Part shown: positions 41,562-55,833 of the stretch, one piece after another
How positions within the stretch are numbered: position 1 is the stretch's first letter
Layout: every line of letters starts with the position of its first letter
Assembly (NCBI GenBank): GCA_016868455.1
Contig: VGGV01000001.1
Coordinates: 62,001 to 126,000 of the forward strand
Direction of reading: 5' to 3'
Length of the DNA stretch: 64,000 nucleotides
Origin: Bacteroidota bacterium
GTDB lineage: Bacteria; Bacteroidota; Bacteroidia; Chitinophagales; Chitinophagaceae
Notes under the pieces: generated by a model
What the model was told of the DNA's origin: nothing
Database searches by the model: none
Seen by the model: the letters and a program-made list of their open reading frames with translations, nothing else
Program-made: the position numbers and the translations under genes

Positions 41562-41569
41562 TATCTTTG
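41562..41569 (+). promoter_or_regulatory. Minus-7 element TATCTTTG before the putative porin gene
   Basis: TATCTTTG is an exact TAnnTTTG match. It places the transcription start near 41575, downstream of the in-frame TTG at 41567, so the coding start must be later (41582 or beyond). No good minus-33 element is seen. Confidence 0.5.
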
Positions 41570-41581
41570 TTTGCTTATTGG

Positions 41582-43654
41582 TTGTTTCAATTAAACAAAG
41601 ACTGCCTGGTAAAAAAATATTCATATTTACTTTTGCTGTTCATCGCCCTGCTTCATGCGTCATTATCCGTAAATGCGCAGGAACCCAATCCCGGCAATAT
41701 CGGGAACCGCATACAACAGCGGGTGGGCGGCATTCGCCGTTCAGTAGGCGGTACTGATACAAATGACAGCCTCCGCCGCCGTAATAAACATGAGGACTCC
41801 ATTACCATCAGTTTCCGTTACCTTGATTCTACCCGTAATTACTGGCTGGATTCATCTGTCAATGATTTTACAAGGCGTTACCCTGTGCCAGCCACACATA
41901 TCTATCTTGGCAACACCGGCACAGCTTCCCGTTCCCTCTTGTTTTCACCGGTAATGCAGGCCGGGTTTGATAATGGCTTTCATGCTTTTGATGTTTATAA
42001 ATGGAAATTGGAAAGTGTAAGGTTCTTTAACACGACCCGACCCTATTCCGAGCTTAATTATTTTCTGGGCAGCCGGGTGGAGCAGATCATTGAAGTGATG
42101 CATACCCAAAATATCAAACCCTCCTGGAATTTTGCTTTTCAGTACCGGCTGATTAATTCACCCGGGTTTTTTCAAAACCAGCGTACCAATCATAACAATT
42201 ATTTGTTCACATCGAAATTTCAATCCAGAAACCTCCGGTATAACAATTATGTTGTTTTACTGGGAAACAAGATGCTGGCTTCAGAAAACGGGGGTATCAT
42301 TGATACTGCGAATATCCTGGACGACCCGATTTATAAGGAAAGATTTAATATCAGAACATATCTGGGCGGTGACAATCCATTTACCTCTGACTTTTTTGGC
42401 TCCAGAATAAATACCGGTAACCGGAATAATGAGTTTACTGTACTGCTGCGACAGCAGTACGACCTGGGTAAAAAAGATTCCATAGTTACGGATTCTACCG
42501 TCATCCCGCTGTTTTATCCCCGGCTGCGTTTTGAGCATACCTTCCGGTTCGATAAAAACAAATATGTATTCCAGGACTATGTGGCTGATTCAGCATATTA
42601 TAAAAAGTATTATGATACAGCATTGCGGAAACCGCTTGATTCCCTGGTCCTGATAGAAAAGTGGCGCATTATTACTAATGATTTTTCCATATACCAGTAT
42701 CCGGATGCCAGAAACCTGCACCAGTTTATTAAGCTCGGTCTTACCGTACAGAATATTACCGGGGAGCTTTCTTCGGGGCAAAAAACTTTCTTTAATACCC
42801 TGGGTCATGCGGAGTACCGGAACAGGAGTCGTAACCAGCAATGGGATATTGAGGCCAATGGAAAATTATTCTTCACCGGTTTCAATGCCGGTGATTTTGA
42901 TGCCCACATCAGCCTGCAGCGCCTGCTGGGAAAAAAACTCGGCTACCTTCAATTAGGGTTTGAGAACACCAGCCGCACTCCCTCTTTTGTTTTCGATAAC
43001 CGGAGCAGTTTTTATTTGCAGAAAACTCCGGCCAATCTTAAAAAAGAAAATAGCTCCCACCTGTTTGCATCGTATTTTTTGCCTTCGTTCCGGTTCCGGC
43101 TTACAGGGCATTATTACCTGGTGAACAACTATACCTATTTTACGGATTTCATTAAGGTGAACCAGGAAACCTCCCTGTTCAACCTGCTGCAAATAGCTGT
43201 GCATAAAACCATCAAACTTGGTAAAAGGTGGAACTGGCATACCGATATTTATTTCCAGCAAAAAGTGGGCGCCGCTCCATTGAATGTGCCTTTTATATAT
43301 ACCCGCAACAGGTTTGCTTATGAGGGTAACCTTGGTTTCAAAAACCTTGATATAGCCATGGGGGCCGAACTTCGCTATCGGGCAGCTTACAAAGCGGATA
43401 ATTATTCTCCTGCGTCGGGACAGTTTTTCTACCAGGACAGTATTACCATACGAAATGATCTCCCGGATATTTCAGCCTATGTGCACTTCCGCATCAGGCC
43501 GTTTAAGGCATTTATAAGGGCCGAAAACCTGAATGCAGCCCGGAAACTGCCCAATGGAGGCTTTGGGTTTACCAATAATAACCTGGTGGCTCCGGGGTAT
43601 GCTTTGCCTGGTCTTCAGATAAGAGTGGGGGTGTGGTGGAGCTTTGTTAACTGA
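41582..43654 (+). CDS. Putative outer-membrane porin
   Basis: A protein of about 690 residues: N-terminal signal (KKYSYLLLLFIALLHASLSVNAQ), a low-complexity linker, then alternating amphipathic strands typical of a large barrel, with terminal GLQIRVGVWWSFVN ending in aromatic residues as outer-membrane barrels do. The pattern matches the Bacteroidota putative porin family. No ATG fits: the frame has TTG at 41567 and 41582 and a CTG at 41606 that would start closest to the KKYSYLLLL leader. I list TTG 41582 because it lies after the predicted transcription start. It is monocistronic. Confidence 0.7.
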   Translation: MFQLNKDCLVKKYSYLLLLFIALLHASLSVNAQEPNPGNIGNRIQQRVGGIRRSVGGTDTNDSLRRRNKHEDSITISFRYLDSTRNYWLDSSVNDFTRRYPVPATHIYLGNTGTASRSLLFSPVMQAGFDNGFHAFDVYKWKLESVRFFNTTRPYSELNYFLGSRVEQIIEVMHTQNIKPSWNFAFQYRLINSPGFFQNQRTNHNNYLFTSKFQSRNLRYNNYVVLLGNKMLASENGGIIDTANILDDPIYKERFNIRTYLGGDNPFTSDFFGSRINTGNRNNEFTVLLRQQYDLGKKDSIVTDSTVIPLFYPRLRFEHTFRFDKNKYVFQDYVADSAYYKKYYDTALRKPLDSLVLIEKWRIITNDFSIYQYPDARNLHQFIKLGLTVQNITGELSSGQKTFFNTLGHAEYRNRSRNQQWDIEANGKLFFTGFNAGDFDAHISLQRLLGKKLGYLQLGFENTSRTPSFVFDNRSSFYLQKTPANLKKENSSHLFASYFLPSFRFRLTGHYYLVNNYTYFTDFIKVNQETSLFNLLQIAVHKTIKLGKRWNWHTDIYFQQKVGAAPLNVPFIYTRNRFAYEGNLGFKNLDIAMGAELRYRAAYKADNYSPASGQFFYQDSITIRNDLPDISAYVHFRIRPFKAFIRAENLNAARKLPNGGFGFTNNNLVAPGYALPGLQIRVGVWWSFVN

Positions 43655-43686
43655 TTCTCAAAAAAGTAGAATTGATCCTTCTCATT

Positions 43687-43716
43687 TTTGGAAATAGCCA
43701 ACAGATGCTATCTTTG
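43687..43716 (+). promoter_or_regulatory. Promoter TTTG-N18-TATCTTTG before the HYC_CC_PP gene
   Basis: A TTTG minus-33 element at 43687-43690 and an exact TAnnTTTG (TATCTTTG) at 43709-43716 are spaced by 18 bases, close to the Bacteroidota consensus. The predicted start of transcription is about 5 bases before the ATG at 43727, leaving a very short leader. It may serve the whole metal-handling operon that follows. Confidence 0.6.
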
Positions 43717-43726
43717 CATCTGGTTC

Positions 43727-44119
43727 ATGAAAACATTTATAGCTGCCATATCATTTATCCTCTATTTTGCTGCCACCAGCGGTATTGTGATCAATTCACA
43801 TTATTGCATGAAAAAACTGGTGTCGGTTCGCCTTTTTGAAACCAAGGCCAAAATGTGCGGGCAGTGCGGTATGGATCTGCATGATAACGGCGGCTGCTGT
43901 ACTGATGAAACAAAAGTGCTGAAACTGGTACAGGATCAGGTAAAGATTCCTGTTACCACTTTTCAACTGCCCTCTTTGGATGTTTTTACCACCGAAGTTT
44001 CTGATTTTTTTGCAACTTCTGTTTATAAGGTGAACGGTAAAACACATTTCAATAATCACTCCCCCCCTTTGTTATCTGCACAGGATACTTACCTGCAGAT
44101 CAGTGTTTTCAGGATTTGA
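43727..44119 (+). CDS. HYC_CC_PP-type secreted protein
   Basis: A 130-residue exported protein with an N-terminal hydrophobic leader, HYC (residues 25-27), a CxxC (CGQC, 44-47), a CC pair (57-58) and a late PP (in HSPPLLS). This is the cysteine/proline signature after which the family is named. Members occur beside copper or other metal-resistance genes in Bacteroidota and are likely metal-binding or thiol-active periplasmic proteins. The start at 43727 is preferred because the promoter excludes the longer reading from 43688. The HMA-domain genes follow on the same strand. Confidence 0.78.
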   Translation: MKTFIAAISFILYFAATSGIVINSHYCMKKLVSVRLFETKAKMCGQCGMDLHDNGGCCTDETKVLKLVQDQVKIPVTTFQLPSLDVFTTEVSDFFATSVYKVNGKTHFNNHSPPLLSAQDTYLQISVFRI

Positions 44120-44213
44120 GATAATACCCTTTTGCGCAGAAGGTCAATAGTCATTGGCCGTTGAACCATATTTTTCTTTATTAATCATTATCTCAAATTT
44201 TAAATTGATTACA

Positions 44214-44750
44214 ATGAAATCTTTAAAAATATTTTCCCTGGCAGTATTCATGCTGGGACTTTCAGCAAATGTTATTGCCCAGTCAAAGACTGAAACATTC
44301 AATGTTTCCGGGAACTGCGGAATGTGCAAATCAAAGATTGAAAAAGCCGCCAAAGATGCCGGCGCCAAAGAAGCCAGTTGGAACAAGGATACAAAAGAAC
44401 TGACTGTAACATATAAAAGCAGTTCTACCAACACAGCAAAGATCCAGCAGAAAATAGCAGATGTTGGATATGACAATGCCGGCTTTAAATCCACTACAGA
44501 AGCCTATAATAAACTTCATGGATGCTGCAAATACGACCGTGAAGAAGCCGCCGCTGAAGAAATGGATTGCTGCAAGGACGGTAAATGCACCAAAGAAGGA
44601 CATAACGGGAAAGATTGCTGCAAAGAAGGCAGCAAATGCTCCAAAGAGGGCCACGACGGCAAGGATTGCTGCAAGAAAAGCGGCAAATGCTCCAAAGAAG
44701 GCCACGACGGCAAGGATTGCTGCAAGAAAGAGGATAAAGGTCATCATTAA
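44214..44750 (+). CDS. Secreted HMA-domain protein with Cys/His-rich repeat tail
   Basis: A 178-residue exported protein with signal peptide (SLKIFSLAVFMLGLSANVIAQ), an HMA domain with the metal-binding CGMC (residues 35-38) and a family-specific HGCCKY extension (residues 102-107). The last 60 residues consist of four repeats of about 17 residues, each starting DCCK and three containing KCxKEGHxGK (118-133, 134-150, 151-167, 168-178). The tail thus offers many cysteines and histidines for metal. HMA domains bind Cu(I) or similar soft metals. The start at 44214 was chosen for its signal peptide. It is followed by a second HMA protein and lies inside the metal locus. Confidence 0.82.
   Translation: MKSLKIFSLAVFMLGLSANVIAQSKTETFNVSGNCGMCKSKIEKAAKDAGAKEASWNKDTKELTVTYKSSSTNTAKIQQKIADVGYDNAGFKSTTEAYNKLHGCCKYDREEAAAEEMDCCKDGKCTKEGHNGKDCCKEGSKCSKEGHDGKDCCKKSGKCSKEGHDGKDCCKKEDKGHH
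44565..44747 (+). repeat. Intragenic tandem repeats (51-bp unit) coding for DCC...KCxKEGHxGK
   Basis: Units of about 48-51 bases are repeated three times plus a partial fourth at the end of the HMA-domain gene. Units two and three are nearly identical in DNA, so copy number may change by recombination or slippage. Confidence 0.75.
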
Positions 44751-44771
44751 TCAGCAACAAACTTTTTTAAA

Positions 44772-45317
44772 TTGAAAAAGCTATTGTTAGGGGCCATGGT
44801 ATGCCTTGGAGTATTGAAGGGTGAAGCCCAGTTTACGAAAGCAAACCTGCAGGCAACAGGTCTCACCTGTGCCTTGTGCAGTAATGCCATTAATAAAGCA
44901 TTGCAGAAAGTTTCTTTTGTTGAATCGGTTAAATCAGATATCAAAAACTCGGCTTTCAGCATTGTATTCAAAGAAGGAAGTAAAGTGGAGATTGACGCCC
45001 TGAAGAATGCAGTGGAAGATGCAGGTTTTTCAGTGGGCAGTTTGAAACTGACCGGTACCTTCAGTGAAGTGAAAGTCGAAAAAGACAGGCATATTAAAAT
45101 CGGCGGTGATAATTTTCACTTCCTGAACGGAGATGGGCAGTTGTTGAAAGGCGAACAGGAAATAACGGTTGTAGACAGGAATTTTGTTGCTGAGAAGCAA
45201 TTCAAAAAACTTTCTTCCGCCTCAAAATTGAACTGTGTGCAAAGCGGTAAAGCTTCATCCTGCTGTGTAAAAGAGGGGATAGCAGAAGGTGAAAGGATAT
45301 ACCATATCATTATTTGA
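44772..45317 (+). CDS. Second secreted HMA-domain protein, TTG start
   Basis: A 181-residue exported protein with signal peptide (KKLLLGAMVCLGVLKGEAQ), an HMA domain with CALC (residues 33-36) and SDIKNSAFSIVFKEG, then a C-terminal domain of unknown type with several cysteines (LNCVQSGKASSCCV). The start codon is TTG at 44772 (TTG-AAA-AAG), the only one that gives a proper leader; no ribosome-binding site is evident. It is the third gene of the metal locus and ends at a strong terminator. Confidence 0.75.
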   Translation: MKKLLLGAMVCLGVLKGEAQFTKANLQATGLTCALCSNAINKALQKVSFVESVKSDIKNSAFSIVFKEGSKVEIDALKNAVEDAGFSVGSLKLTGTFSEVKVEKDRHIKIGGDNFHFLNGDGQLLKGEQEITVVDRNFVAEKQFKKLSSASKLNCVQSGKASSCCVKEGIAEGERIYHIII

Positions 45318-45324
45318 TTGCAAT

Positions 45325-45360
45325 AAGTCGCTTCCCTGCCGGTTCAGGGAAGTGACTTTT
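45325..45360 (+). terminator. Strong Rho-independent terminator
   Basis: AAGTCGCTTCCCTG pairs with CAGGGAAGTGACTT (one G-T pair) around CCGGTT, followed by TT. It sits 8 bases after the second HMA gene and probably separates the two halves of the metal locus. Confidence 0.85.
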
Positions 45361-45371
45361 AAATTTTAGCT

Positions 45372-45863
45372 ATGATAAACTGCAAAAAATTATTAACCTT
45401 TTTTCTCAGCATATTTTTCTGTGCAGTACTTACGGCGCAGCCACGCCAGGGACAGTTGGCTGCAGAAATTGCCCTGCCTTCTGCCAGCGGCGATACGGTT
45501 AAACTGTCCTCATTGAGGGGTAAAGTGGGTTTGCTTGATTTTTGGGCATCGTGGTGCAGGCCCTGCAGGGTTGCGAATAAAGGGCTTGTAAAAATCTATT
45601 CCAGATTCAAAGCAAAAGGTTTCGAAATCTATAGCGTTTCGCTGGATGACAGGAAAGAAGACTGGCATAAGGCAGTAAAGAAAGACAAGATCACCTGGCT
45701 GCAGGTGATAGACCCCGGCGGGTGGGAAACACCCACCGCACAGCGCTGGGGTATTTATGCATTGCCAACCACTTACCTGATCGACAAAGAGGGTCGCCTT
45801 ATTGCTATGGACCTTGAGGGAAAAGATCTTGAGGATGCGCTGAAAGATTTGCTGGGAGACTAA
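45372..45863 (+). CDS. TlpA-like periplasmic thioredoxin
   Basis: A 163-residue exported protein with a signal peptide (LLTFFLSIFFCAVLTAQ) and a thioredoxin/AhpC-TSA fold containing the redox motif WCRPCR (Cys62 and Cys65) in FWASWCRPCRVANK, ALPTTYLIDKEG and SLDDRKEDW. TlpA proteins reduce disulphides and are linked to cytochrome or copper-site maturation. The ATG at 45372 follows the terminator by 11 bases; a barrel protein gene follows 12 bases after its stop. Confidence 0.88.
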   Translation: MINCKKLLTFFLSIFFCAVLTAQPRQGQLAAEIALPSASGDTVKLSSLRGKVGLLDFWASWCRPCRVANKGLVKIYSRFKAKGFEIYSVSLDDRKEDWHKAVKKDKITWLQVIDPGGWETPTAQRWGIYALPTTYLIDKEGRLIAMDLEGKDLEDALKDLLGD

Positions 45864-45875
45864 TAAAGACCGGAC

Positions 45876-46706
45876 ATGAAAAAAAATCTGCTGGGTTACC
45901 TGATGCTTATTGCCGCAAATGCCGCAGGGCAGGAGTTATACGTATTTTCTGAACCGGCTTCCAATATACCTGCTCAAACCATCAGCCTGAAGCTGACCGG
46001 CCATTTTGTTACCAGTGATAATATTAATAACCGCTTTTCGCACCGGTTAATGCCGCAGGTATATATCGGTCTTAATAAGAAAATTATGTTGACTGTCAGC
46101 GGCACCATTGCCAATATGCATACACCGGATTTCCGGTATGAATCAATAAATTTTTATACCAAGTACCGGTTTTTATCGAAAGATCAGTTGCACCGGCATT
46201 TCCGCATGGCCGTGTTTGCAGAAGTTTCAGCCACCCGTGCCCCTTTTCATTATGATGAAATTACTTTAATGGGCGATAAGGATGGGGTTGAATTGGGTAT
46301 TATCACCACACAGCTTTGGCACAAACTGGCTGTTTCAGGAACAATCAGTCACACCCAGGTGCTGGATAAATCGAGGTACAATAAAGTATTGTACATACCT
46401 GCCCGTAATTACCAGTCATTGAATTACTCTCTTTCCGCTGGCTATCTGCTGCTGCCTAAAGAATACACGGATTACAAGCAAACAAATCTGAACGTATATC
46501 TCGAAATGCTGGGACAACAAACATTTGACCGGAAAACATACTTCGTGGATATGGCGCCGGCGGTGCAACTGATATTCAACAGCAATGCCAAACTCAATTT
46601 TGGCTATCGCTTTCAGTTGGGAAGCACCATGCAGCGCATGACGAATAATAGCTGGCTGGTAAGTTTTGAAAGAACCTTCCTGGGGGCTTTGAAGAAAAAG
46701 AAATAA
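45876..46706 (+). CDS. Outer-membrane beta-barrel-like protein of the metal locus
   Basis: A 276-residue exported protein (KKNLLGYLMLIAANAAGQ leader). The rest alternates hydrophobic and polar residues as expected for beta-strands, with aromatic girdle residues and a terminal NNSWLVSFERTFLGA strand. I do not recognise a named family; similar barrels appear in metal loci of Bacteroidota. It is located between TlpA and the TonB receptor, 12 and 22 bases away, suggesting one operon. Confidence 0.6.
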   Translation: MKKNLLGYLMLIAANAAGQELYVFSEPASNIPAQTISLKLTGHFVTSDNINNRFSHRLMPQVYIGLNKKIMLTVSGTIANMHTPDFRYESINFYTKYRFLSKDQLHRHFRMAVFAEVSATRAPFHYDEITLMGDKDGVELGIITTQLWHKLAVSGTISHTQVLDKSRYNKVLYIPARNYQSLNYSLSAGYLLLPKEYTDYKQTNLNVYLEMLGQQTFDRKTYFVDMAPAVQLIFNSNAKLNFGYRFQLGSTMQRMTNNSWLVSFERTFLGALKKKK

Positions 46707-46728
46707 TATAGTTAGGTAAAACAGAAAA

Positions 46729-49308
46729 ATGTCAGTAAAAAAAATAAGTATCGTTTTTGTAACAGTGCTGATCTTTTCCGGCAGTAAACTGGTTGCACAG
46801 CCACCGAAAGATACCACGGCAGTTATCTATGTTGCCGGCGCCTGCGAGATGTGCAAGGAAAGAATTGAAAAAGCAGCCATGGAAAGAAAAGGGGTTAAGT
46901 CGGCTGTATGGAATTTGGATACAAGAAAATTGTCGCTTACCTATAACCCGGTTCTAACAAGCGTTGAAAAAATACAGTGCAGGATTGCCGACCGGGGACA
47001 TGATAACGATTTTGAAAATGCCAGGGATGCCGTGTATAATGCGTTGCCTGCCTGTTGCCGGTACAGGGATATAGTGCAGCCCCCACAGGCTAATACGGAT
47101 TCTTTTGCCATTAATCCGGTAAGCAGGGAACCGGGGTTGATAAAAGGAGTGGTGCTGGAAGCTGATGAACGGGGAAATTTCAAGCCACTTGCAGGTGCAT
47201 CCGTTGTTTGGCTGGGAATGAATTCAGGAACTATAACTGATACCTCAGGAACCTTTTCTGTCAGGCAGCCTAAAGATGTTTACAGGCTGGTCATCAGTTA
47301 TGCAGGATATACGCCTGATACCATTTCAACCATTAATGCCGCCGAACTGAAAATCATACTTGCATCCGGTAAGCAGCTGAATGAGGTCAGGGTTTCTTCA
47401 AGGCAGCGCTCCACTTATATTTCATCACTGAACACTATACGGACACAGGTGATGACAGGAAGGGAACTCTTCAAAGCCGCCTGCTGCAATTTGAGTGAAA
47501 GTTTTGAAACAAACCCTTCCGTGGACGTTTCTTACAATGATGCGGTTACCGGTTCTAAACAAATCCAGTTGCTGGGCTTAAGCGGTATTTACACACAGCT
47601 TACTGTAGAAAACCTGCCCGGGCCAAGGGGGCTAGCCTCGCCGTTTGGGTTGAATTTTATTCCCGGCCCGTTTGTGGAGTCCATCCAGCTGAATAAAGGA
47701 GTAGGTTCGGTGGCGAATGGATATGAAAGCATCGCAGGGCAGATCAATATTGAATTGAAAAAGCCACAGACAGCAGAGAAGCTGTACCTGAATGCTTATA
47801 TCAATGATATGTCCAAGACAGACCTGAACCTGGTGCTGACAGAAAAGTTTGGGGATAAGTGGAGCACAGCCTTGCTGCTGCATGATAATTTTCAGGCAAG
47901 AACAAAAGTTGATTTTAATAAAGATGGCTTCAGGGATATGACAACAGGCAATTTATTTACTGCTGTTAACCGCTGGAACTATAACGGAACGAAGGGACTG
48001 GAGTCGCAGTTGGGTTTTAAAATACTGTTAGACGATTTTACCGGCGGCCAAACGTCATTTGATCCGGAAAAGGACAAATTCTCTACCCGCAGCTATGGAC
48101 TTGGCATTAACACCAACCGGTATGAGGTATTTGCCAAAATGGGTTATGTGTTTCCTGAAAAGAAATATAAGAGTGCCGGCATCCAGTTATCTGCTTTCGA
48201 TCATAAACAGGATTCTTATTTTGGCATGACATCCTATTATGGAAGGCAAAAGAATTTTTATGCCAACCTGATTTACCAGTCTATTATCGGAACTACAGCC
48301 CACAAGTTCAGAACAGGGTTCAGTTTTTTGTCAGACAATTACAATGAGTTGTTTAATTCAAAAAGATACAGAAGGCAGGAGTCGGTGACCGGAGCTTTTT
48401 TTGAATATACATTTACCCCGGTTGAAAAATTCAGTGTGGTATCCGGTATCCGTGCTGATTACAACAGCCTCTTCGGCTGGTTTGCCACACCAAGGCTGCA
48501 TGCCCGTTATGAGCCGGTAAAAGGAACAGTTATCCGCCTGAGCGCAGGGCGGGGACAACGAACAGCGAACATCTTTGCTGAGAACAACAGTGTATTTGTA
48601 AGCGCCAGGCAAATCAATATCCTCTCTTCATCAGTGGGAAAGGCCTATGGGCTTAACCCCGAAGTAGCCTGGAATAAAGGAATAAGCATTGACCAGAAAT
48701 TCAAACTGTTTAAACGGGGCGCCAACCTTGCATTTGATTTTTTCAGAAATGATTTTCAGCAACAGGTAATCGTTGACCTGGAAGATGCAAGGCAGGTAAA
48801 ATTTTATAACCTGGATGGCCGTTCTTTTTCCAGCAGTTTCCAGGCGGAGATGAACCTGGAACCGGTGCAAAAATTTGAAGTAAGACTGGCTTACCGCTTT
48901 TTTGATGTAAAAGCAACTTACGGAAACAGTTTGCTGCAAAAACCATTTACTGCGAAACACAGGGCATTCACCAACCTGGCATATGAAGTGGAAGGATGGA
49001 AGTTTGATTACACCTTTAACTACAATGGCTCAAAACGCATTACCAATACTTCGGCCAATCCTTCCGTTTACCAGCGGCCGGCTGCATCCCCATCTTATGT
49101 GCTGATGAATGCGCAGGTAAGTAAAACAGTTGGGAAAAAGCGGCCCGTGGATATCTATATCGGCGGGGAAAACCTGACCAACTTCCTGCAGCGGGAAGCC
49201 ATTGTAAGTGCGGATCAGCCTTTTACCCCCTACTTTGACGCTTCGCTGATATGGGGTCCCGTTTCAGGCAGAATGTTTTATACAGGGATCAGGTATAAAA
49301 TAAAATAA
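46729..49308 (+). CDS. TonB-dependent receptor with an N-terminal HMA domain
   Basis: An 859-residue outer-membrane protein. After a signal peptide (about 1-23) comes an HMA domain with CEMC (residues 39-42), then PACCRY at about 107-112, matching the CC extension of the small HMA protein at 44214. A carboxypeptidase-regulatory-like domain follows (about 136-215), then the TonB-dependent plug (LNEVRVSSRQRS to NKGVGSVANGYESIAGQINIELK) and a long beta-barrel that ends FYTGIRYKIK. TonB receptors import large or scarce ligands with energy from the inner membrane; the HMA domain would handle a soft metal in the periplasm. A TonB-box-like stretch was not firmly identified. It ends the TlpA-barrel-receptor operon. 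Confidence 0.85.
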   Translation: MSVKKISIVFVTVLIFSGSKLVAQPPKDTTAVIYVAGACEMCKERIEKAAMERKGVKSAVWNLDTRKLSLTYNPVLTSVEKIQCRIADRGHDNDFENARDAVYNALPACCRYRDIVQPPQANTDSFAINPVSREPGLIKGVVLEADERGNFKPLAGASVVWLGMNSGTITDTSGTFSVRQPKDVYRLVISYAGYTPDTISTINAAELKIILASGKQLNEVRVSSRQRSTYISSLNTIRTQVMTGRELFKAACCNLSESFETNPSVDVSYNDAVTGSKQIQLLGLSGIYTQLTVENLPGPRGLASPFGLNFIPGPFVESIQLNKGVGSVANGYESIAGQINIELKKPQTAEKLYLNAYINDMSKTDLNLVLTEKFGDKWSTALLLHDNFQARTKVDFNKDGFRDMTTGNLFTAVNRWNYNGTKGLESQLGFKILLDDFTGGQTSFDPEKDKFSTRSYGLGINTNRYEVFAKMGYVFPEKKYKSAGIQLSAFDHKQDSYFGMTSYYGRQKNFYANLIYQSIIGTTAHKFRTGFSFLSDNYNELFNSKRYRRQESVTGAFFEYTFTPVEKFSVVSGIRADYNSLFGWFATPRLHARYEPVKGTVIRLSAGRGQRTANIFAENNSVFVSARQINILSSSVGKAYGLNPEVAWNKGISIDQKFKLFKRGANLAFDFFRNDFQQQVIVDLEDARQVKFYNLDGRSFSSSFQAEMNLEPVQKFEVRLAYRFFDVKATYGNSLLQKPFTAKHRAFTNLAYEVEGWKFDYTFNYNGSKRITNTSANPSVYQRPAASPSYVLMNAQVSKTVGKKRPVDIYIGGENLTNFLQREAIVSADQPFTPYFDASLIWGPVSGRMFYTGIRYKIK

Positions 49309-49385
49309 CCGGGGTTGTAAATATGTGTAAGCCAAAAGAGTAATTAGCCTTGTTATTTGATAATGAAATTCATTTAAAAGTATTT

Positions 49386-49393
49386 TATCTTTG
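49386..49393 (+). promoter_or_regulatory. Minus-7 element TATCTTTG
   Basis: An exact TAnnTTTG match 9 bases before the ATG of the His-rich secreted gene. A TTTG at 49356 lies 26 bases upstream, longer than ideal. Confidence 0.5.
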
Positions 49394-49401
49394 TTCAGGT
49401 A

Positions 49402-49914
49402 ATGAAATATTCCAGATCCATAAAAATTAAAGCACTCGTCCTTTCGGCAGTATTCTCATTGAATACTGTAGTTGGATTTGCATGCAGCATTGGTTTGGAC
49501 CTGGGATATAACAGCTCCCATCATAAAAAAGCAGTATTTGAGATCCCGGAACAAAGTCATGAGAATTCCTGCCATCATCAGCACAAGCCTGTTGCAGCTA
49601 AAAAAGCTACACATAGCCATGATGATGGTGTAGGACATGGTCATCACAATGATCTTCAAAATGAAGAAGCCGATTCTAATGATCTCCCCGCTGATGACTG
49701 TTGCAGTAATGAAGTTTACAAATTCAATGACCTGACCAAGAACATTACACAGGGAAAAACCGGAAATAAATTCCAGGTTTTATCAGCGACCCCAAACTCT
49801 CATTTTGGCCAGGTTGTATGGGTTATTAATGAAATTCCTCTTTTGCATTCTTCAAGGTTCTTATTTCCGCCTCCTCCTGACATACTTGTGTCCATTCAGA
49901 AATTCCAGATTTGA
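49402..49914 (+). CDS. His/Cys-rich secreted protein, probably metal binding
   Basis: A 170-residue exported protein with a leader (LVLSAVFSLNTVVGFACS), a histidine-rich linker (HENSCHHQHK, HSHDDGVGHGHHND) and a CC pair (DDCCSNEVYKF), then PPPPDILVSIQKFQI at the end. The combination of a CC pair and a terminal PPPP resembles HYC_CC_PP-type proteins, but the first HYC motif is missing. Histidine clusters are typical of metal buffering. It has its own promoter-like element and precedes the pump fragment. Confidence 0.65.
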   Translation: MKYSRSIKIKALVLSAVFSLNTVVGFACSIGLDLGYNSSHHKKAVFEIPEQSHENSCHHQHKPVAAKKATHSHDDGVGHGHHNDLQNEEADSNDLPADDCCSNEVYKFNDLTKNITQGKTGNKFQVLSATPNSHFGQVVWVINEIPLLHSSRFLFPPPPDILVSIQKFQI

Positions 49915-50007
49915 TTATTATAAAGCAGGTGAAGCCAGCATTGCTTTGCCACAATACGTTGTGCCCGTTGCAAACTGCAGGTATTTGTTTTACGATAATC
50001 TTTTTTT

Positions 50008-51636
50008 ATGTTCAGAATCATTTTTATAGTTTTTGTTTTTTGGCTTTCGTCATTTCCGGTAAATGCCCAGCAATTATTAACTGAAAGAGATGCTGTCAGT
50101 AAAGCTTTGGCGAACAGTAAAAATATACAAGCGGCATCGCTGCAGATCAAAGAACAGCAGCAATTAGTAAAATCTGCCATTAATTTACCCAACCCTGAAT
50201 TTTTCTGGGAAAGTCCCACTGGTAATTTTTACACAGGAAGTATAACGTAGTCCATTGAATTTCCATCCGTTTATACCCGGCAATATCGTTTACAAAAACA
50301 GCAGGTTGTTGTTGCTGTAAAAGAAAAACAGCTTACAGAAGCAGAAATCAAGTACCGGGTAAAACTATTATATCTTGAAGCACAGTTTGCTGATTCAATG
50401 GTGAGTCAATTATACATCCAGGACACTTTGTATGAGAAAATTAAATTATCAGCGATCAGACAGTTTGATGCGGGGCGGCCAATCTCTCACCGGCTTGATC
50501 ATTTATTGTCGGGTGTAAGGGCACAGGTTGCCGTAAAAATATTTGGCAATGATCTGATAACGCTTCGTTCAACAGCGGAACAATTAAAAACAGTTATTAC
50601 AGGTTTACCCGGCGTGGTAGATGTACAGGTAGAAAACCAGGTGATGGTTCCCCAACTCATGATCAGGCTTGACAGAATGGCGGTTCAGCGATACGGTTTG
50701 CAAGTGGGAAAGGTAGCCGATGAACTTGAAATATTTTATAATGGAAAAGTAGTGAGCCAGATTTTGGACGGACAAAAAAGTTTTGATATTGTGTTGAGAA
50801 CAGATGACAGTACAAGAAAAAATATTGATGCCATCCGCAATACCCAGATCGCAACATCTGATGGCTCATTGATACCATTGGAACAGATTGCAAAAATTGA
50901 ACTTGAAAACAATATCAATGCCGTGAATCATGAGAATACACAACGCCGTATTGTGGTTTCAGCAAATGTGCAGGGAAGAGATCTGGGAAGTACAGTAAAA
51001 GAAATGCAGGAAACGGTGAAGAAAGAAATGAAATTACAGGAAGGCTATTACCTGCAATGGGGTGGCCAGTTTGAAAGCCAGCAATCTGCATCTAAATTAA
51101 TTACCATACTCAGCATCTTTTCCATTGCAGGAATTTTCCTGGTACTGTTTAGTCATTTTAAAAGTTCAAGGATTGCTTTACAGATCATGCTGAATATTCC
51201 ACTGGCACTGATCGGCAGTGTGATCGCCGTACTACTTACGGGCGGTGTTTTCTCAATCGCTACTTTGGTTGGCTTTATTACATTAACAGGCATTGCATCC
51301 CGAAATGGCATTATGATGATCAGTCACTATATACATTTAGTACAGCATGAAGGAGAAGTGTTTGGCGATAAGATGATCATCCGCGGTTCACTGGAAAGAA
51401 TGGTGCCGGTGCTGATGACTGCATTGGTGGCTGCATTTGCACTGATCCCATTAACCATGGATGCAACCGCTCCGGGAAAAGAAATCTTATACCCGGTAGC
51501 AACAGTTATCCTGGGCGGATTGGTAAGTTCCACTTTACTGGATATGATCGTTACGCCGGTTGTATTTAAAATGTTTGGAGAAAAAGCGTTGAGAAAATAT
51601 ATTAAAGAGCAAAACAAAAAAGTATTTGATGAATAA
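50008..51636 (+). pseudogene. tolC'-cusA' chimera: remnant of an RND heavy-metal efflux pump
   Basis: One frame runs from the ATG at 50008 to 51636, broken only by TAG at 50248-50250. Residues before the join resemble a TolC/CzcC outer-membrane factor (signal peptide, EQQQLVKSAINLPNPEFFWESP, then after the stop IEFPSVYTRQYRLQKQQ). Near 50475 it switches without frame loss to the C-terminal half of a CusA/CzcA RND pump: PISHRLDHLLSGVRAQVAVK, LPGVVDVQVENQ, VGFITLTGIASRNGIM and ERMVPVLMTALVAAFALIPL. The first half of the pump, the membrane-fusion protein and most of TolC are gone. The chimera cannot form a working tripartite pump. Confidence 0.8.
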
Positions 51637-51683
51637 TAGTTGGGGATATAATTAAAAATTATTTCACATAAAAATTAAAAAAC

Positions 51684-52289
51684 ATGCCCGCAAAAATTAA
51701 ATTTATCCTTGGATCATTGGCACTTACATTTTTCATTCTTGCCTGTGGAAACAATAAAGACAAAACTACAGGAGAAAAAGCTGAAGAAAAAAAAACAGAT
51801 GAGGTTTGTTACAACCCTAACCTGGTAGTTGATACAAGTAAAAAAAGTATCAAATCAATGGCAGTGGCGGTGATCGGTGGTGAAAACATAAAAATATCTT
51901 ATCATTCTCCGGGTGTTCGTAAAAGAATTATCTGGGGCGGCCTGGTTCCTTATGATGAAGTATGGGTAACCGGTGCACATGATGCGACATCGCTGGAAAT
52001 GCCAAAAGCTTTTGTTGTAAACGGAAAGGGAATACCAGCGGGAAAGTATGCTTTCTTCACCATTCCCGGCGAAAAGGAATGGACGATTATTATTAACAAA
52101 AATTGGAAACAGCACCTGGCTTCTGAATATGATGAAAAGGATGATATAGTAAGATTAAAAGTAAAGCCATCAATAATTGAGCACACAGAACGGCTGCAGT
52201 ATTTTATAGAAATGAAGAACAATAATGAAGGTGTCATCGCCGTAGCATGAGAAAAACTAAGAATTGAAGCTTTGTTTTTATTGAAATAG
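51684..52289 (+). pseudogene. DUF2911 family lipoprotein, last part cut by in-frame TGA
   Basis: A lipoprotein (lipobox FILAC) with a charged linker and the DUF2911 domain: IKISYHSPGVRKRIIWGGLVPYDEVWVTGAHDATSL, GKYAFFTIPGEKEWTIIINKNW and LQYFIEMKNNNEGVIAVA. TGA at 52248-52250 then interrupts the frame, which continues as EKLRIEALFLLK to TAG at 52287-52289. DUF2911 proteins typically end with a W-E-K-type strand, so the stop is best explained as TGG to TGA. The 188-residue product as it stands lacks only the final strand and may still be made. Its function is unknown. Confidence 0.72.
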
Positions 52290-52346
52290 CAGCACAGATG
52301 TTTAAAATGAATGATTAACCGGAAAAGTAATTAAGTTTGACAGTTT

Positions 52347-52865
52347 ATGGCGAAACAATCATATATCCATTGTGTTATTTGCATATTATCAATTGCTTTG
52401 TACGGTTGTAATAACAGTGGAAAAAAGACCGAAGCAGCCCAGCCGGCTGCTTCAGACTTAGTATTCAAAAAAATAAAACTGAATAAACTGAGTGGTGAAC
52501 AATTTGATTTATCCGGCTATAAAGGAAAAACTGTGTTCGTTAATTTCTGGGCCACCTGGTGCAGGCCCTGTATAGAGGAGATGCCCTCAATTCAAAGAGC
52601 AATGGAAATTATAAAGCATGAGAATATTGAGTTTTTATTTGCAACGGATGAAACAGCAGGGCAGATAGAAAAATTCAAACAGCGGTATAATTTCCCGTTT
52701 CATTTTGTGCAGACCAATAATTACCAGGCATATGGTATTATGGTTTTACCCACTACCTTTATTTTTAATAAAGAGGGAAAACTTGTTTTCTCTGAAATGG
52801 GCTACCGCAAATGGGACAGTAAAAGCAATATTGATTTACTTAAAAGCATTATCAATCAGAAATGA
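52347..52865 (+). CDS. TlpA-family disulphide reductase lipoprotein
   Basis: A 172-residue lipoprotein (lipobox cysteine 21, IALYGC) with a thioredoxin fold: KLSGEQFDLSGYKGKTVFVNFWATWCRPCIEEMPSIQ with redox cysteines 72 and 75, then YGIMVLPTTFIFNKEGK. Such proteins reduce thiols in the periplasm. The last codons overlap the next gene by 4 bases (ATGA), showing translational coupling to the sialidase-fold lipoprotein. Confidence 0.88.
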   Translation: MAKQSYIHCVICILSIALYGCNNSGKKTEAAQPAASDLVFKKIKLNKLSGEQFDLSGYKGKTVFVNFWATWCRPCIEEMPSIQRAMEIIKHENIEFLFATDETAGQIEKFKQRYNFPFHFVQTNNYQAYGIMVLPTTFIFNKEGKLVFSEMGYRKWDSKSNIDLLKSIINQK

Positions 52866-54076
52866 AACGATTACTGACATTATTCATTCTTTCCTTCACC
52901 GTCATTTCCTGTAATGATACCGGAGATGAAAAGAAAGCAGATTTACCAGCCCGGGTAAAAACAGTGGATTCACCTGTCGCAGATTCCTGCGCTGAACCCT
53001 ATTTGTTTACGGATAAAAACGGAACTGTTTATCTGTCGTGGATTGAAAAGAGAAGTAAGGATGCTTCATTGAAGTTTTCATCATTTACAGACAATAAATG
53101 GACAGAACCGGTTACTGTCGCCTCCGGCAATAACTGGTTTGTGAACTGGGCGGATTATCCCGTAATTATGAGCGATGGCAATAGAAATTTCCTGGCTCAT
53201 TTTCTCGAAAAAAGCGATACGGCAAAATTTACCTACGATGTAAGAATTGTTTCTTCTGCCGATTCAGGCAAATCATGGAGTCAATCCAAAATTCTGCATC
53301 ATGATAATGTAAAAGCAGAACATGGATTTGTCTCAATGACTCCGTATCAGGATGGATTTTTTATATCCTGGCTGGACGGAAGAAAGACCGCAACGGAAGG
53401 AATAGAAGATCATCACGATGGCCATCATGGAGAAATGACCCTTCGGGGAGCTGTGCTCGATTTCAGCGGTAACAAAACAAGCGAATGGGAGCTGGATGGA
53501 AAAGTTTGTGATTGCTGCCAAACGGGAACTGCCGTCGCAGATAATGGCCCCGTCGTCGTTTATCGGGACCGTTCTGATGAAGAAGTGAGAGACATGTCAA
53601 TTGTTCGTTTTGTAAATGGCCAATGGACTTCACCCAAAACAATTTATGAGGATAACTGGAAAATTAAAGCTTGTCCGGTAAATGGCCCGAGAATCTCCTC
53701 TCTTGGCAATAACCTTGCGATAGCCTGGTTTGCTATGAAGGAAAAAAACGGCGAAGTGAAACTTGTTTTTTCAAAAGATGGCGGCGCTTCTTTCAGTAAA
53801 CCGGTGAAGATTGATGAAGGCAATACTATCGGCAGGGTGGGAGTGGTGATGCTTGATTCAGTTACCGCAATGGTAAGCTGGATGGAAGGATCAGATATAA
53901 AAGCAATCAAAGTTCATGCAGATGGTACAAAGGAAAAGTCAATTATGATTGCTTCATCTTCTGATAAACGTTCCAGTGGGTTTCCTCAAATGACAAAATC
54001 AGGAAACAGGATCATATTCGCCTGGACGGATGATAAGGCCAAAACAATCCGGCTGGCTCAGATTAGCGCTAGATAA
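52862..54076 (+). CDS. Sialidase-fold lipoprotein (BNR-like) with His-rich loop
   Basis: A 404-residue lipoprotein (lipobox cysteine 17, TVISC). It has repeated aspartate-box-like blades (SADSGKSWSQSK; SKDGGASFSKPVK) of the six-bladed sialidase/exo-alpha-sialidase fold. Catalytic sialidase residues are not evident, so a sugar-binding or other role is possible. A loop HHDGHHGE and a VCDCCQ motif could bind metal; the latter seems conserved in relatives. It is coupled to TlpA upstream and follows the metal region. Confidence 0.7.
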   Translation: MKRLLTLFILSFTVISCNDTGDEKKADLPARVKTVDSPVADSCAEPYLFTDKNGTVYLSWIEKRSKDASLKFSSFTDNKWTEPVTVASGNNWFVNWADYPVIMSDGNRNFLAHFLEKSDTAKFTYDVRIVSSADSGKSWSQSKILHHDNVKAEHGFVSMTPYQDGFFISWLDGRKTATEGIEDHHDGHHGEMTLRGAVLDFSGNKTSEWELDGKVCDCCQTGTAVADNGPVVVYRDRSDEEVRDMSIVRFVNGQWTSPKTIYEDNWKIKACPVNGPRISSLGNNLAIAWFAMKEKNGEVKLVFSKDGGASFSKPVKIDEGNTIGRVGVVMLDSVTAMVSWMEGSDIKAIKVHADGTKEKSIMIASSSDKRSSGFPQMTKSGNRIIFAWTDDKAKTIRLAQISAR

Positions 54077-54161: not shown

Positions 54162-54194
54162 ATGTCTAAAAAAATATTTAGAAGACTTGAATAA
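54162..54194 (+). CDS. Possible 10-residue leader peptide (MSKKIFRRLE)
   Basis: A short ATG frame ends in TAA, which shares one A with the ATG of the di-heme oxidoreductase gene (TAATG). Re-initiation or coupling could follow. It is too short to judge by homology and may be accidental. Confidence 0.25.
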   Translation: MSKKIFRRLE

Positions 54195-55384
54195 TGGGAA
54201 AATCAACCATCATACTTTTTTTGCTTACAGCAATGCTGGCCTGTAATAAATTGCTGCCGGATGCGCCTGCAGATGATGAGATACTGGATGGTCCCTTAGC
54301 CGGGCTAACCGGTGAGGAGAATGCCATATTTATTCGCGGCGATGTGGCGTTCAATGATGATGTGTTCACCTCAGCAAAAGGGCTTGGACCTTTGTTTGTA
54401 GCCACTTCCTGCGGCAGTTGTCATGCTGGTGATGGCAAAGGCCACCCGTTTACCACACTTACACGGTTTGGGCAAAGCGATACCGTCAACGGAAATGTTT
54501 TTTTGCATAGGGGCGGGCCCCAGCTGCAAAACAGGGCCATACCCGGATTTGTGCCTGAGCAAATTCCTGCCGGAGCGACCTCTTCAAAGTTCACGCCGCC
54601 TGCCAATACAGGACTTGGTTTTCTTGACGCAGTACCAGATGCCTCCATTCTTGCACTGGCAGATCCGAATGATGCCAACGGAGATGGAATTTCCGGAAGA
54701 CCTAATTGGATCACTCCTAAATCTTACTCTTCATTTCGGCCAAACAGCATCTCCCAGAATGGAAAGTATATCGGACGGTTTGGAAAGAAAGCAGCGACCT
54801 ATGATCTGCTGCAGCAAACTGCTACCGCCTACAACCAGGATATCGGCATCACATCTGTGTATGAACCGGTAGACACATATAGCGGACAGGATATTGGCGC
54901 AGAAGTAAGCGAACAAACGGTATTGGATGTTGTTTTTTATTTACAGACGCTGAAGGCGCCTGTTCAACGAAACCCAAACGATGCAGATGTAATAGCAGGG
55001 AAACAACTTTTTCTGAACATCGGGTGTGATAAATGTCATACTCCCCGGCTTACCAGCGGCCCGTCTACTATTGCTGCATTATCCAACAAAACATTTTTCC
55101 CTTACACCGATCTTTTATTGCACGATATGGGGAGCGGATTGAATGACGGGTATACGGAAGGAATCGCTTTGCCCCAGGAATGGAGGACGCCTCCATTGTG
55201 GGGATTGGGGTTGTCAAAGAATTCGCAGGGAGGCAGTTATTTTTTATTGCATGATGGAAGGGCCCGTAGTATTGAGGAGGCCATCCTGTTGCACGGTGGT
55301 GAAGGTGTCCAAAGCCGAACAGCCTTTCAGCAACTGAATACTTCTGATAAAAGCAAACTGATCAAATTTCTTGAATCCCTGTAA
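54194..55384 (+). CDS. Di-heme oxidoreductase family lipoprotein
   Basis: A 396-residue lipoprotein (lipobox cysteine 17, TAMLAC) of the DUF1111/thiol-oxidoreductase-like family. It carries two CxxCH haem motifs: CGSCH (residues 73-77, with AGDGKGHPF after it) and CDKCH (about 278-282, followed by TPRL). Between them is NTGLGFLDAVPDASILALADP and DANGDGISGRPNWI; near the end come TPPLWGLGLS and FLLHDGRARSIEEAILLHGGE. These enzymes are periplasmic electron-transfer proteins of unclear substrate. The operon continues with a Rieske protein three bases later and a porin. Confidence 0.88.
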   Translation: MGKSTIILFLLTAMLACNKLLPDAPADDEILDGPLAGLTGEENAIFIRGDVAFNDDVFTSAKGLGPLFVATSCGSCHAGDGKGHPFTTLTRFGQSDTVNGNVFLHRGGPQLQNRAIPGFVPEQIPAGATSSKFTPPANTGLGFLDAVPDASILALADPNDANGDGISGRPNWITPKSYSSFRPNSISQNGKYIGRFGKKAATYDLLQQTATAYNQDIGITSVYEPVDTYSGQDIGAEVSEQTVLDVVFYLQTLKAPVQRNPNDADVIAGKQLFLNIGCDKCHTPRLTSGPSTIAALSNKTFFPYTDLLLHDMGSGLNDGYTEGIALPQEWRTPPLWGLGLSKNSQGGSYFLLHDGRARSIEEAILLHGGEGVQSRTAFQQLNTSDKSKLIKFLESL

Positions 55385-55386
55385 TA

Positions 55387-55833
55387 ATGGACCGGAGAAA
55401 ATTCATACGGAACAGTTGCACCGCCTGTTTAACAGCTACTGCACTCGGCGGTATTTTATCTTCCTGCACGGCGACAAAATACATCAGCGGAAAATTAGGC
55501 AAGGATGGACTGTCTGTTGATATGACTGAGTTTGAGATAAAGCAAAAAGGCAAGACAGCTCATCGTTCGTTTATCATCATCAGGAACGATGCACTGCAAT
55601 ATCCCATTTGTGTTTACCGTATCAGCGAAAAGGAGTATTCTGCTTTATGGATGAGTTGCACGCACCAGGGTACCGAACTGCAGGCTTCCGGTGATTTTTT
55701 GCAATGCACAGCACATGGCAGCGAATTTGACAACAAAGGAACGGTAAAAAATGGTCCGGCCGACAGGAACCTTAGAAATTTTCCTGTTAGCATTTCCGGC
55801 AATCAATTATTTATTGACCTGAGAGCAATATGA
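55387..55833 (+). CDS. Rieske [2Fe-2S] protein, probably Tat-exported
   Basis: A 148-residue protein that starts with a twin-arginine-like DRRKFIR and a hydrophobic segment ending LSSC (Cys27, a possible lipobox). The Rieske cluster motifs are C-x-H (Cys91, His93 in CTHQGTEL) and C-x2-H (Cys107, His110 in CTAHGSEFD), with the GxV and PL strands around them. It would carry electrons in the periplasm. The stop codon overlaps the porin start by 4 bases (ATGA). Its partner is probably the adjacent di-heme oxidoreductase. Confidence 0.88.
   Translation: MDRRKFIRNSCTACLTATALGGILSSCTATKYISGKLGKDGLSVDMTEFEIKQKGKTAHRSFIIIRNDALQYPICVYRISEKEYSALWMSCTHQGTELQASGDFLQCTAHGSEFDNKGTVKNGPADRNLRNFPVSISGNQLFIDLRAI

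Follow-up and report, generated by a model that had tools for sequence, protein, structure and literature searches.

The known systems nearest to the locus described here, a candidate copper-acquisition operon in a genome of the Chitinophagaceae (Bacteroidota), are CruR and CutF. CruR is encoded in the cruR-crtA(bfrG)-PepSY_TM operon of Bordetella, in which CrtA imports copper (PMC9426467, PMC12914433). The spacing between the Cys motif and the RAPP motif of CruR is 45, kept within one or two residues, and the RAPP lies three residues before the end (PMC9426467). CutF, from Rhodobacter capsulatus, is an exported nascent copper sensor with a C-terminal proline motif, and a stem-loop shields the start of the next gene. 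The CutF survey counts members in Bacteroidota and names TonB-like proteins as a frequent neighbor (PMC9973294); that leaders can precede TonB genes is thus already known. The window that we analyzed is a stretch of 64,000 nucleotides, positions 62001-126000 of contig C1 of a 2.64-Mb genome (64 contigs; completeness estimate 100%). Its unit 1 encodes a protein of the HYC_CC_PP family (HYC), two HMA-domain proteins (HMA1 and HMA2), a TlpA-like redoxin, a barrel-like protein, and a TonB-dependent receptor with an HMA domain of its own.

Unit 1 resembles the CruR system in that a small, predicted-exported Cys protein with a C-terminal Pro-Pro heads the operon of a TonB-dependent transporter. The spacing between Cys motif and Pro-Pro is also conserved, and a second group of leaders, which are DUF6660-like, comes close to that of CruR (spacing 41, with the Pro-Pro about 3 residues from the end). 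CruR is a DUF2946 protein with CXXC and RAPP motifs that works by Rho termination across a 162-bp gap, whereas HYC has a CC, a Pro-Pro that is not RAPP, and a predicted hairpin. Compared to the Bordetella operon, unit 1 has an HMA partner and no PepSY_TM was seen in it. The sequence logo of CrtA, as published, shows no conserved Cys, while the receptor in the window has a Cys pair in its plug.

HYC is like CutF in having a proline motif near the C-terminus and a predicted stem-loop at the next gene's start. The gene under CutF control encodes a multicopper oxidase (CutO), while HYC precedes HMA and receptor genes; the proline motif of CutF is at the very end, while that of HYC is about 15 residues before the end, in a protein without a match to DUF2946. 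OprC of Pseudomonas aeruginosa is a TonB-dependent copper receptor with a CxxxM-HxM site (PMC11213822); the receptor in the window has a plug Cys pair and an HMA domain instead.

Seven genes in two units

The initial annotation described seven consecutive exported proteins as a single extracytoplasmic copper capture and relay system. All seven open reading frames (ORFs) are present where it placed them (7/7), and its soft-metal theme is borne out, but the genes form two units, and the last of them, which encodes a His-rich protein, probably lies outside the relay. Unit 1 spans 43727-49308. Unit 2 begins with the His-rich gene and continues into the remains of a Cus efflux operon. TAnnTTTG lies at 43709, before the HYC gene, and at 49386, before the His-rich gene, and the plus strand between these two has no other copy. 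We take TATCTTTG to be the Bacteroidota-type promoter box. Because a separate TATCTTTG box stands before the His-rich gene, and because this gene goes with the Cus remnant, we rejected the single seven-gene relay. Two loci speak against excluding the His-rich gene: in L203, its homolog directly follows HYC and HMA genes (at a contig end), and in L242, an HYC gene lies four genes from it.

The features of unit 1, with the promoter boxes labeled on the above assumption, are:

43709..43716, + strand: TATCTTTG promoter box before the HYC_CC_PP gene (motif scan)
43727..44119, + strand: HYC_CC_PP protein, 130 amino acids, candidate nascent-chain metal sensor and leader of unit 1 (NF047658; Cys pair, late Pro-Pro, FRI end)
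44109..44208, + strand: predicted hairpin between the end of the HYC frame and the RNA before the HMA1 start (folding; family-wide pairing test)
44214..44750, + strand: HMA1, exported extended HMA protein with a 71-residue Cys/His tail (PF00403)
44772..45317, + strand: HMA2, second HMA protein, TTG start (PF00403, 38 bits)
45372..45863, + strand: TlpA/ResA-like thiol-disulfide oxidoreductase (family scans)
45876..46706, + strand: barrel-like exported protein of no family; its homolog in L042 is 50% identical
46729..49308, + strand: TonB-dependent receptor with an N-terminal HMA domain (CxMC, CCxY), CarboxypepD_reg, and a plug Cys pair

The first gene had been drawn from 43687; its start is probably the ATG at 43727, downstream of the box at 43709. 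Export of the unit 1 proteins and of the His-rich protein was judged from signal peptides by eye only.

The same six-gene order is found in one other genome (L042), with identities of 42-67% and two extra small genes between the barrel and receptor genes. Partial versions (HYC-HMA-TlpA-receptor, HYC-HMA-receptor, and HYC-receptor) are found at other loci of the order, and the HYC/HMA/receptor core recurs across Bacteroidota, where the initial annotation had suggested looking for the gene order. Soil type strains such as Segetibacter koreensis DSM 18137 and Flavisolibacter ginsengisoli DSM 18119 also carry the operon. Because the same combination recurs in relatives, the presence of three HMA genes, an HYC gene, and the receptor side by side is not due to chance.

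HYC_CC_PP as a candidate leader

The HYC protein matches the family model NF047658 (E = 5.7e-13, 49.5 bits, cut-off 28), as do 72/72 members of set A2 at E = 0.001. To describe its context, we used 131 distinct receptor loci (137 minus 6 near-duplicates, with L219 and L220 left out). In 105/131 loci, an HYC gene lies on the receptor's strand and at most four genes away from it, and in 117/131 there is either an HYC or a DUF6660-like gene. TAnnTTTG is found at -80 to +30 of the start in 65/105 HYC genes, compared to 5/70 genes for standalone HMA proteins of the extended subfamily described below (HMAx) and 2/131 receptor genes; 0.054 per start are expected by chance. HYC genes are thus promoter-proximal and come first in the operon.

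Its Cys motif is at a nearly constant distance from a late Pro-Pro. The last 20 residues contain Pro-Pro in 87/105 HYC proteins and 12/12 DUF6660-like leaders, but in only 24/562 other ORFs of 90-200 codons and 1/73 HMAx proteins. Among the 63 HYC sequences in which all motifs were found, the distance from CC to PP has a median of 54 and a standard deviation of 1.8, as compared to a standard deviation of 6.1 for the distance before that stretch. The stretch between CC and PP is the least conserved part of the protein, and C27, C57, and C58 are invariant. In the window, the protein ends in FRI. In the DUF6660-like leaders, CC and PP are 41 apart (interquartile range 40-42, n = 11), and the PP typically lies 3 residues (median) before the C-terminus; two of these leaders approach the DUF2946 cut-off of 23.7 bits (20.3 in L062 and 22.2 in L080), and four others have no match. 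Among the His-rich proteins, 27/30 have both a CC and a late PP, with a spacing of 55-60 residues.

By its sequence, HYC_CC_PP is a regulator candidate, more reminiscent of a nascent sensor than of a member of a relay. The initial annotation had stated that no ATPase or regulator was present. This holds for recognizable protein domains within the span, but because HYC itself is a candidate, the annotation probably missed a regulator. We think it unlikely that HYC_CC_PP is instead a working periplasmic accessory protein or chaperone, with the hairpin serving only to couple translation or to protect the mRNA. The three invariant Cys and the confidently modeled N-terminal half (predicted local distance difference test, or pLDDT, of ~90 up to residue 60) could form a metal site, and the lack of a DUF2946 match also fits a stable protein; but the second half is variable in sequence, nearly constant in length, and ends in Pro-Pro, as a nascent-chain device would. 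The fold gave no structural match at E = 0.001 or better.

A predicted hairpin at the next gene's start

If a leader controls the next gene through a hairpin, then the end of the HYC frame should form a stronger duplex with the RNA ahead of the next start at its own locus than with arms from other loci. Across 84 loci, the comparison of own and swapped arms gave -11.1 vs. -7.4 kcal/mol (p = 2.9e-10), and a rerun with slightly altered limits gave -10.6 vs. -7.3 kcal/mol (p = 4.8e-10). The DUF6660-like leaders gave -14.0 vs. -7.9 kcal/mol (n = 11, p = 0.005). No effect was seen for 120 other gene pairs (-7.8 vs. -7.8 kcal/mol, p = 0.36, with 7% in the top 5% of swaps), for arms further upstream in HYC (p = 0.55 and 0.15), for the coding start of the next gene as the arm (p = 0.99), for HMAx to the next gene (n = 23, p = 0.82), or for the receptor to the next gene (n = 31, p = 0.78). 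Since these control sets are null, base composition is unlikely to be the cause of the pairing. Relatedness of the loci should weaken the contrast between own and swapped arms rather than create it.

The pairing is located where it would cover the start: among the 57 loci with a duplex of -9 kcal/mol or lower, the arm on the start side stops short of the next gene by a median of 5 bases (interquartile range 2-11), taking the start as the first ATG, GTG, or TTG of the frame, which is wrong for some genes. We also folded the junction of HYC with the next gene, taking the final 60 bases of HYC and everything up to base 20 of the gene that follows. Relative to shuffled sequences, the median z was -2.04 (n = 96), as compared to -0.49 for other codirectional junctions of the same loci (n = 90; p = 1.1e-10). 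The predicted hairpin over the next start is thus supported as family-wide complementarity. In the window, 44109-44125, which includes the end of the HYC frame, its stop codon (44117-44119), and the bases beyond, pairs with 44187-44199 and 44205-44208, and the whole pairing (44109-44208) precedes the HMA1 start at 44214. Rfam has no match within 43600-52400 at the gathering threshold.

The receptor and its HMA partner

The receptor contains HMA, CarboxypepD_reg, and Plug domains (PF07715, 27.2 bits, cut-off 23.9). Its structural model (pLDDT 83.5) matches BtuB (1nqe; E = 7.5e-27, TMt 0.83), which predicts the plug and 22-strand-type barrel of a TonB-dependent transporter. In 35 HMA-fused receptors, C39, C42, C109, and C110 of the HMA part and C252 and C253 of the plug are invariant. 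The plug Cys pair is present in 132/132 receptors. Because 80 named loci had been found by patterns that include this pair, and ranked by a match that includes the HMA domain, only the 57 loci from a separate genome search were used where this selection matters; the pair is present in 57/57 of these, which were picked from one ranked list and so are not a random sample and do not include distant receptors.

PF00403 (HMA) scores above its cut-off of 24.8 in three proteins of the cluster (33, 38, and 33.9 bits). Genome-wide there are five HMA matches, and the other two are in P-type ATPases, of which one is CopA-like (TIGR01511, 502.9 bits, cut-off 397) and one adjoins a cbb3 oxidase. As the initial annotation had proposed on the basis of a shared CC motif, the HMA of the receptor and HMA1 belong together: they are members of one extended subfamily with a CxxC plus a later CC. 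Across 138 fused and standalone sequences of this subfamily, C39 is 99% conserved and C42, C109, and C110 are 100% conserved.

Among the 131 loci, a standalone HMAx is present for 61/67 unfused receptors vs. 9/64 HMA-fused ones, where a standalone gene was counted if it lay on the receptor's strand and no more than four genes away (in L042, one lies at a greater distance). In the 57-locus set, the counts are 15/20 unfused vs. 6/37 fused (Fisher p = 2.4e-5, which is too good, as the loci are related). In the receptor tree, the fused/unfused state changes at least 4 times. Given these counts and state changes, the receptor and the chaperone appear to be partners, with fusion or separation of the two on more than one occasion. 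Of four plasmid records with a receptor, three were examined: two have an HYC-like gene before the receptor and an HMA gene after it, and the third has an HMA-like gene before the receptor.

The Cys-rich tail of HMA1 and the TlpA protein in the cluster also bear out the initial annotation. The 71-residue tail of HMA1 is storage-like, with 11 Cys and 5 His, and is encoded by a 51-base repeat in 2.9 copies. HMA2, as listed, begins at TTG 44772. The fourth protein was confirmed as a TlpA/ResA-like redoxin by family scans, which placed neither the barrel protein nor the His-rich protein in a family.

A P-type ATPase gene is directly downstream of the receptor in 3/131 loci (5/131 for the loci overall), and an AraC-type protein is encoded within 5 genes in 2/131. 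One AraC-type protein (L061 7579-8136), upstream of HYC and the receptor, has an N-terminal CxxC stretch that is HMA-like by eye; it was rejected as an HMA regulator because Pfam finds no HMA in it. Separately, receptor residues 395-403 form a nearly invariant DxNxDGxxD in the barrel, which by eye is like a calcium-binding loop.

The His-rich gene and a broken Cus operon

The initial annotation ended the cluster at 49914 and missed the broken CusC/CusA remnant (50008-51636) that follows at once. The features from this point on are:

49386..49393, + strand: TATCTTTG promoter box before the His-rich gene (motif scan)
49402..49914, + strand: His-rich exported protein, CC...PPPP...FQI; assigned as leader to the Cus remnant and not to the receptor operon
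49901..50010, + strand: predicted duplex between the end of the His-rich gene and the sequence leading up to CusC, -15.4 kcal/mol
50008..51636, + strand: remains of a Cus operon, an in-frame fusion of CusC residues 1-157 (stop at codon 81) with the C-terminal portion of CusA
51684..52250, + strand: DUF2911 gene; it follows CusA in L213, G417 (L212/L239), and L240
52347..54076, + strand: another TlpA-like gene, next to a BNR-repeat gene; the two are adjacent in 7/7 BNR regions

Homologs of the His-rich protein are found in 23/244 genomes of the family, including this one, and CusC is directly downstream in 9/29 other places (with 1.5-kb flanks). Six operons (L212-L216 and L240) have the order His-rich, CusC, CusB-like, further genes, CusA. 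The DUF2911 gene follows CusA in L213 and L240, and on an overlapping stretch (L239) in the genome of L212. By sequence, unit 2 is a candidate leader of the same kind before a dead efflux operon, derived from CusCBA heavy-metal RND efflux and both deleted and interrupted in this genome. CusC residues 1-157 are 71-76% identical to five relatives and include a premature stop at codon 81; the C-terminal CusA part is in frame with CusC and is 77-91% identical to relatives. CusC and CusA are both truncated and no CusB lies between them, while relatives have intact copies. An assembly error could mimic the deletion, but this is less likely because of the separate stop at codon 81. The other two long RND permeases in the genome score 330.6 and 393.1, below the CusA/CzcA cut-off of 701.45, so heavy-metal RND efflux seems to be lost.

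The end of the His-rich frame (49901-49934) pairs with 49966-50010, before the CusC start, and nine His-rich relatives before CusC pair at -17.8 to -22.4 kcal/mol. The swapped-arm test gave p = 0.13 for these nine, which are too alike to separate own from swapped arms. A weak match of the His-rich protein to CopL (15.5 bits, against a cut-off of 40) was not used.

We also think it unlikely that unit 1 serves copper protection rather than nutrition, with the receptor and HMA proteins sequestering copper and the operon turned on in copper excess, as CutO is by way of CutF. The metallothionein-like tail of HMA1, the HMAx genes inside the Cus operons of L212, L216, and L240, the CusA homologs within 8 genes of the receptor in 7/131 loci, and the Cus remnant next door all fit with protection. 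However, TonB receptors of known function are importers, most of the loci have no efflux gene nearby, and unit 1 is intact here despite the broken Cus operon.

The Cus remnant is followed by the DUF2911, TlpA-like, and BNR-repeat genes, in the same order as in L244. The BNR-repeat gene has a CDCC motif, and in relatives the TlpA-like/BNR pair is associated with genes for Cus proteins or P-type ATPases; the pair (52347-54076) is probably part of a larger copper island. In L048 (11373-11768), and also in L054 and L057, a small exported-looking protein with a QPPR end precedes a CusA-CusC fusion gene; these proteins are possibly another leader family. Further downstream in the window, genes for a di-haem oxidoreductase (DHOR), a Rieske protein, and a porin-like protein lie in a row (54194-57056), and DHOR and porin homologs are also near the receptor in L045. 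On the other side of unit 1, a Porin_10 gene (41567-43654) is directly upstream of the HYC promoter. Several related loci have its homolog at the matching position, and the operon thus seems to occupy a conserved chromosomal site.

Which metal?

We infer that the metal is copper. A gene for an HMBD protein is beside the receptor in L049, HMBD-like tails are found on the HMA1 homologs of L045 and L104, and HMA-MauE membrane proteins are encoded in 8/131 loci. Copper is favored because of these proteins, the P-type ATPases, the HMAx genes in Cus operons, and the type of leader. That the ligand is another soft metal (Zn, Ag, Hg, or Ni) or a metal-thiol compound is improbable: CxxC motifs do not define which metal is bound, HMA1 and HMA2 have sub-threshold matches to MerP models, and His-only CutF-like proteins are linked to Ni/Co (PMC9973294), but Cu(I) is favored by the genomic context (HMBD, Cus, and MauE/P-ATPase) and by the resemblance to copper leaders.

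The genome encodes NosZ, as well as a cbb3 oxidase with a CcoI-like ATPase, and these are likely the main copper users in the organism. The cbb3 oxidase genes and the NosZ gene are close together (L078 and L218, on contig C7 of the same genome).

Proposed mechanism

We give about even weight to the view that unit 1 is a copper-acquisition operon with hand-off from receptor to chaperone and a switch made of the HYC leader and its hairpin. The TonB-dependent receptor would take up copper, as the ion or as a chelate, and would pass it to a metallochaperone, which may be a periplasmic N-terminal fusion (as here) or the product of a neighboring gene. In this genome, transfer from the receptor's own HMA to HMA1 would be the next step, and HMA1 with its Cys/His store, HMA2, and the thiol reductase would lengthen the chain. 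The Cys pair of HYC would test for copper during translation and export, and translation would be slowed by the late Pro-Pro and the conserved last residues. On reaching the final codons of HYC, the ribosome would disrupt the hairpin arm that they form, and if held there it would keep the next start free of the hairpin that otherwise covers it. In a chain held there, the PP would be about 15 residues, and the CC about 71 residues, from the active center. A chain of ~71 residues could just reach the periplasm through the translocon, so this distance would suit the sensing of periplasmic copper. Because CruR shuts its importer off in copper, we expect unit 1 to be off in excess copper; by analogy to CutF, we expect an efflux leader of the unit 2 type to give higher expression with copper. 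The import direction, the ribosome arrest, the sign of the response, and the hand-off order are what we infer, and the same applies to the metal, inward movement, and hand-off order in the initial annotation.

Several results weigh against this proposal. Only 42% of HYC loci are in the top 5% of swaps. In the window alone, the HYC hairpin has a z of -1.93 (9/200 shuffles fold as well) and the His-rich/CusC pairing has a z of -1.09. Pro-Pro is missing from the last 20 residues of 18/105 HYC proteins, the residues preceding Pro-Pro are not RA, and DUF2946 (PF11162), the family of CruR and CutF, does not match either HYC or the His-rich protein. MerP models match the HMA proteins as well, in every case below cut-off. 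The CxxxM-HxM motif of OprC is not conserved in the 132 receptors, and no Met after residue 220 is conserved above 85% in them. NosZ was rejected as the copper client: it is present in 23/37 family genomes with the receptor vs. 28/48 without, so there is no association among these 85 genomes (p = 0.82; the receptor was called present at a best E below 1e-70, and no best E fell between 1.8e-114 and 9.8e-61). Just 3 independent fusion contrasts in the receptor tree are supported; the standalone gene goes the opposite way in 2.8 of them on average, and the sign test gives p = 0.25. Finally, no characterized TonB receptor of the HMA-partnered family was found in the literature.

The broader form of the proposal is that the phylum Bacteroidota has a class of exported nascent-chain sensors of its own (HYC_CC_PP, His-rich, and DUF6660-like), with hairpins formed by their end codons at the next start, and that these control a novel type of TonB receptor, one that is fused to or accompanied by a dedicated extended-HMA chaperone. 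We consider this possible, at somewhat less than even confidence, and lowered our estimate slightly because HYC has no DUF2946 match and the hairpins in the window are weak on their own.

Implications

In open-licence full-text literature, we recognized no description of HYC_CC_PP or of HMA-fused TonB receptors. Within the literature searched, three things appear to be new: the interpretation of HYC_CC_PP and of the His-rich family as leaders, a hairpin shared across the family, and a receptor with an HMA partner. A survey of RAPP/RGPP leaders reports that copper-related leader ORFs are missing in Bacteroidota and that TonB-related ones are found in Gram-negatives generally (PMC12992588); leaders with another C-terminal motif and a hairpin would fill this gap and would point to a role for HYC_CC_PP, whose family name comes from its motifs alone.

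Few copper-specific receptors have been identified (PMC12914433), and how copper crosses the outer membrane and what accepts it next are poorly known. A tethered or neighboring chaperone would make the hand-off from the receptor directly testable. If the broader proposal is true, then copper would go from the channel to a bound chaperone and would never be free in the periplasm.

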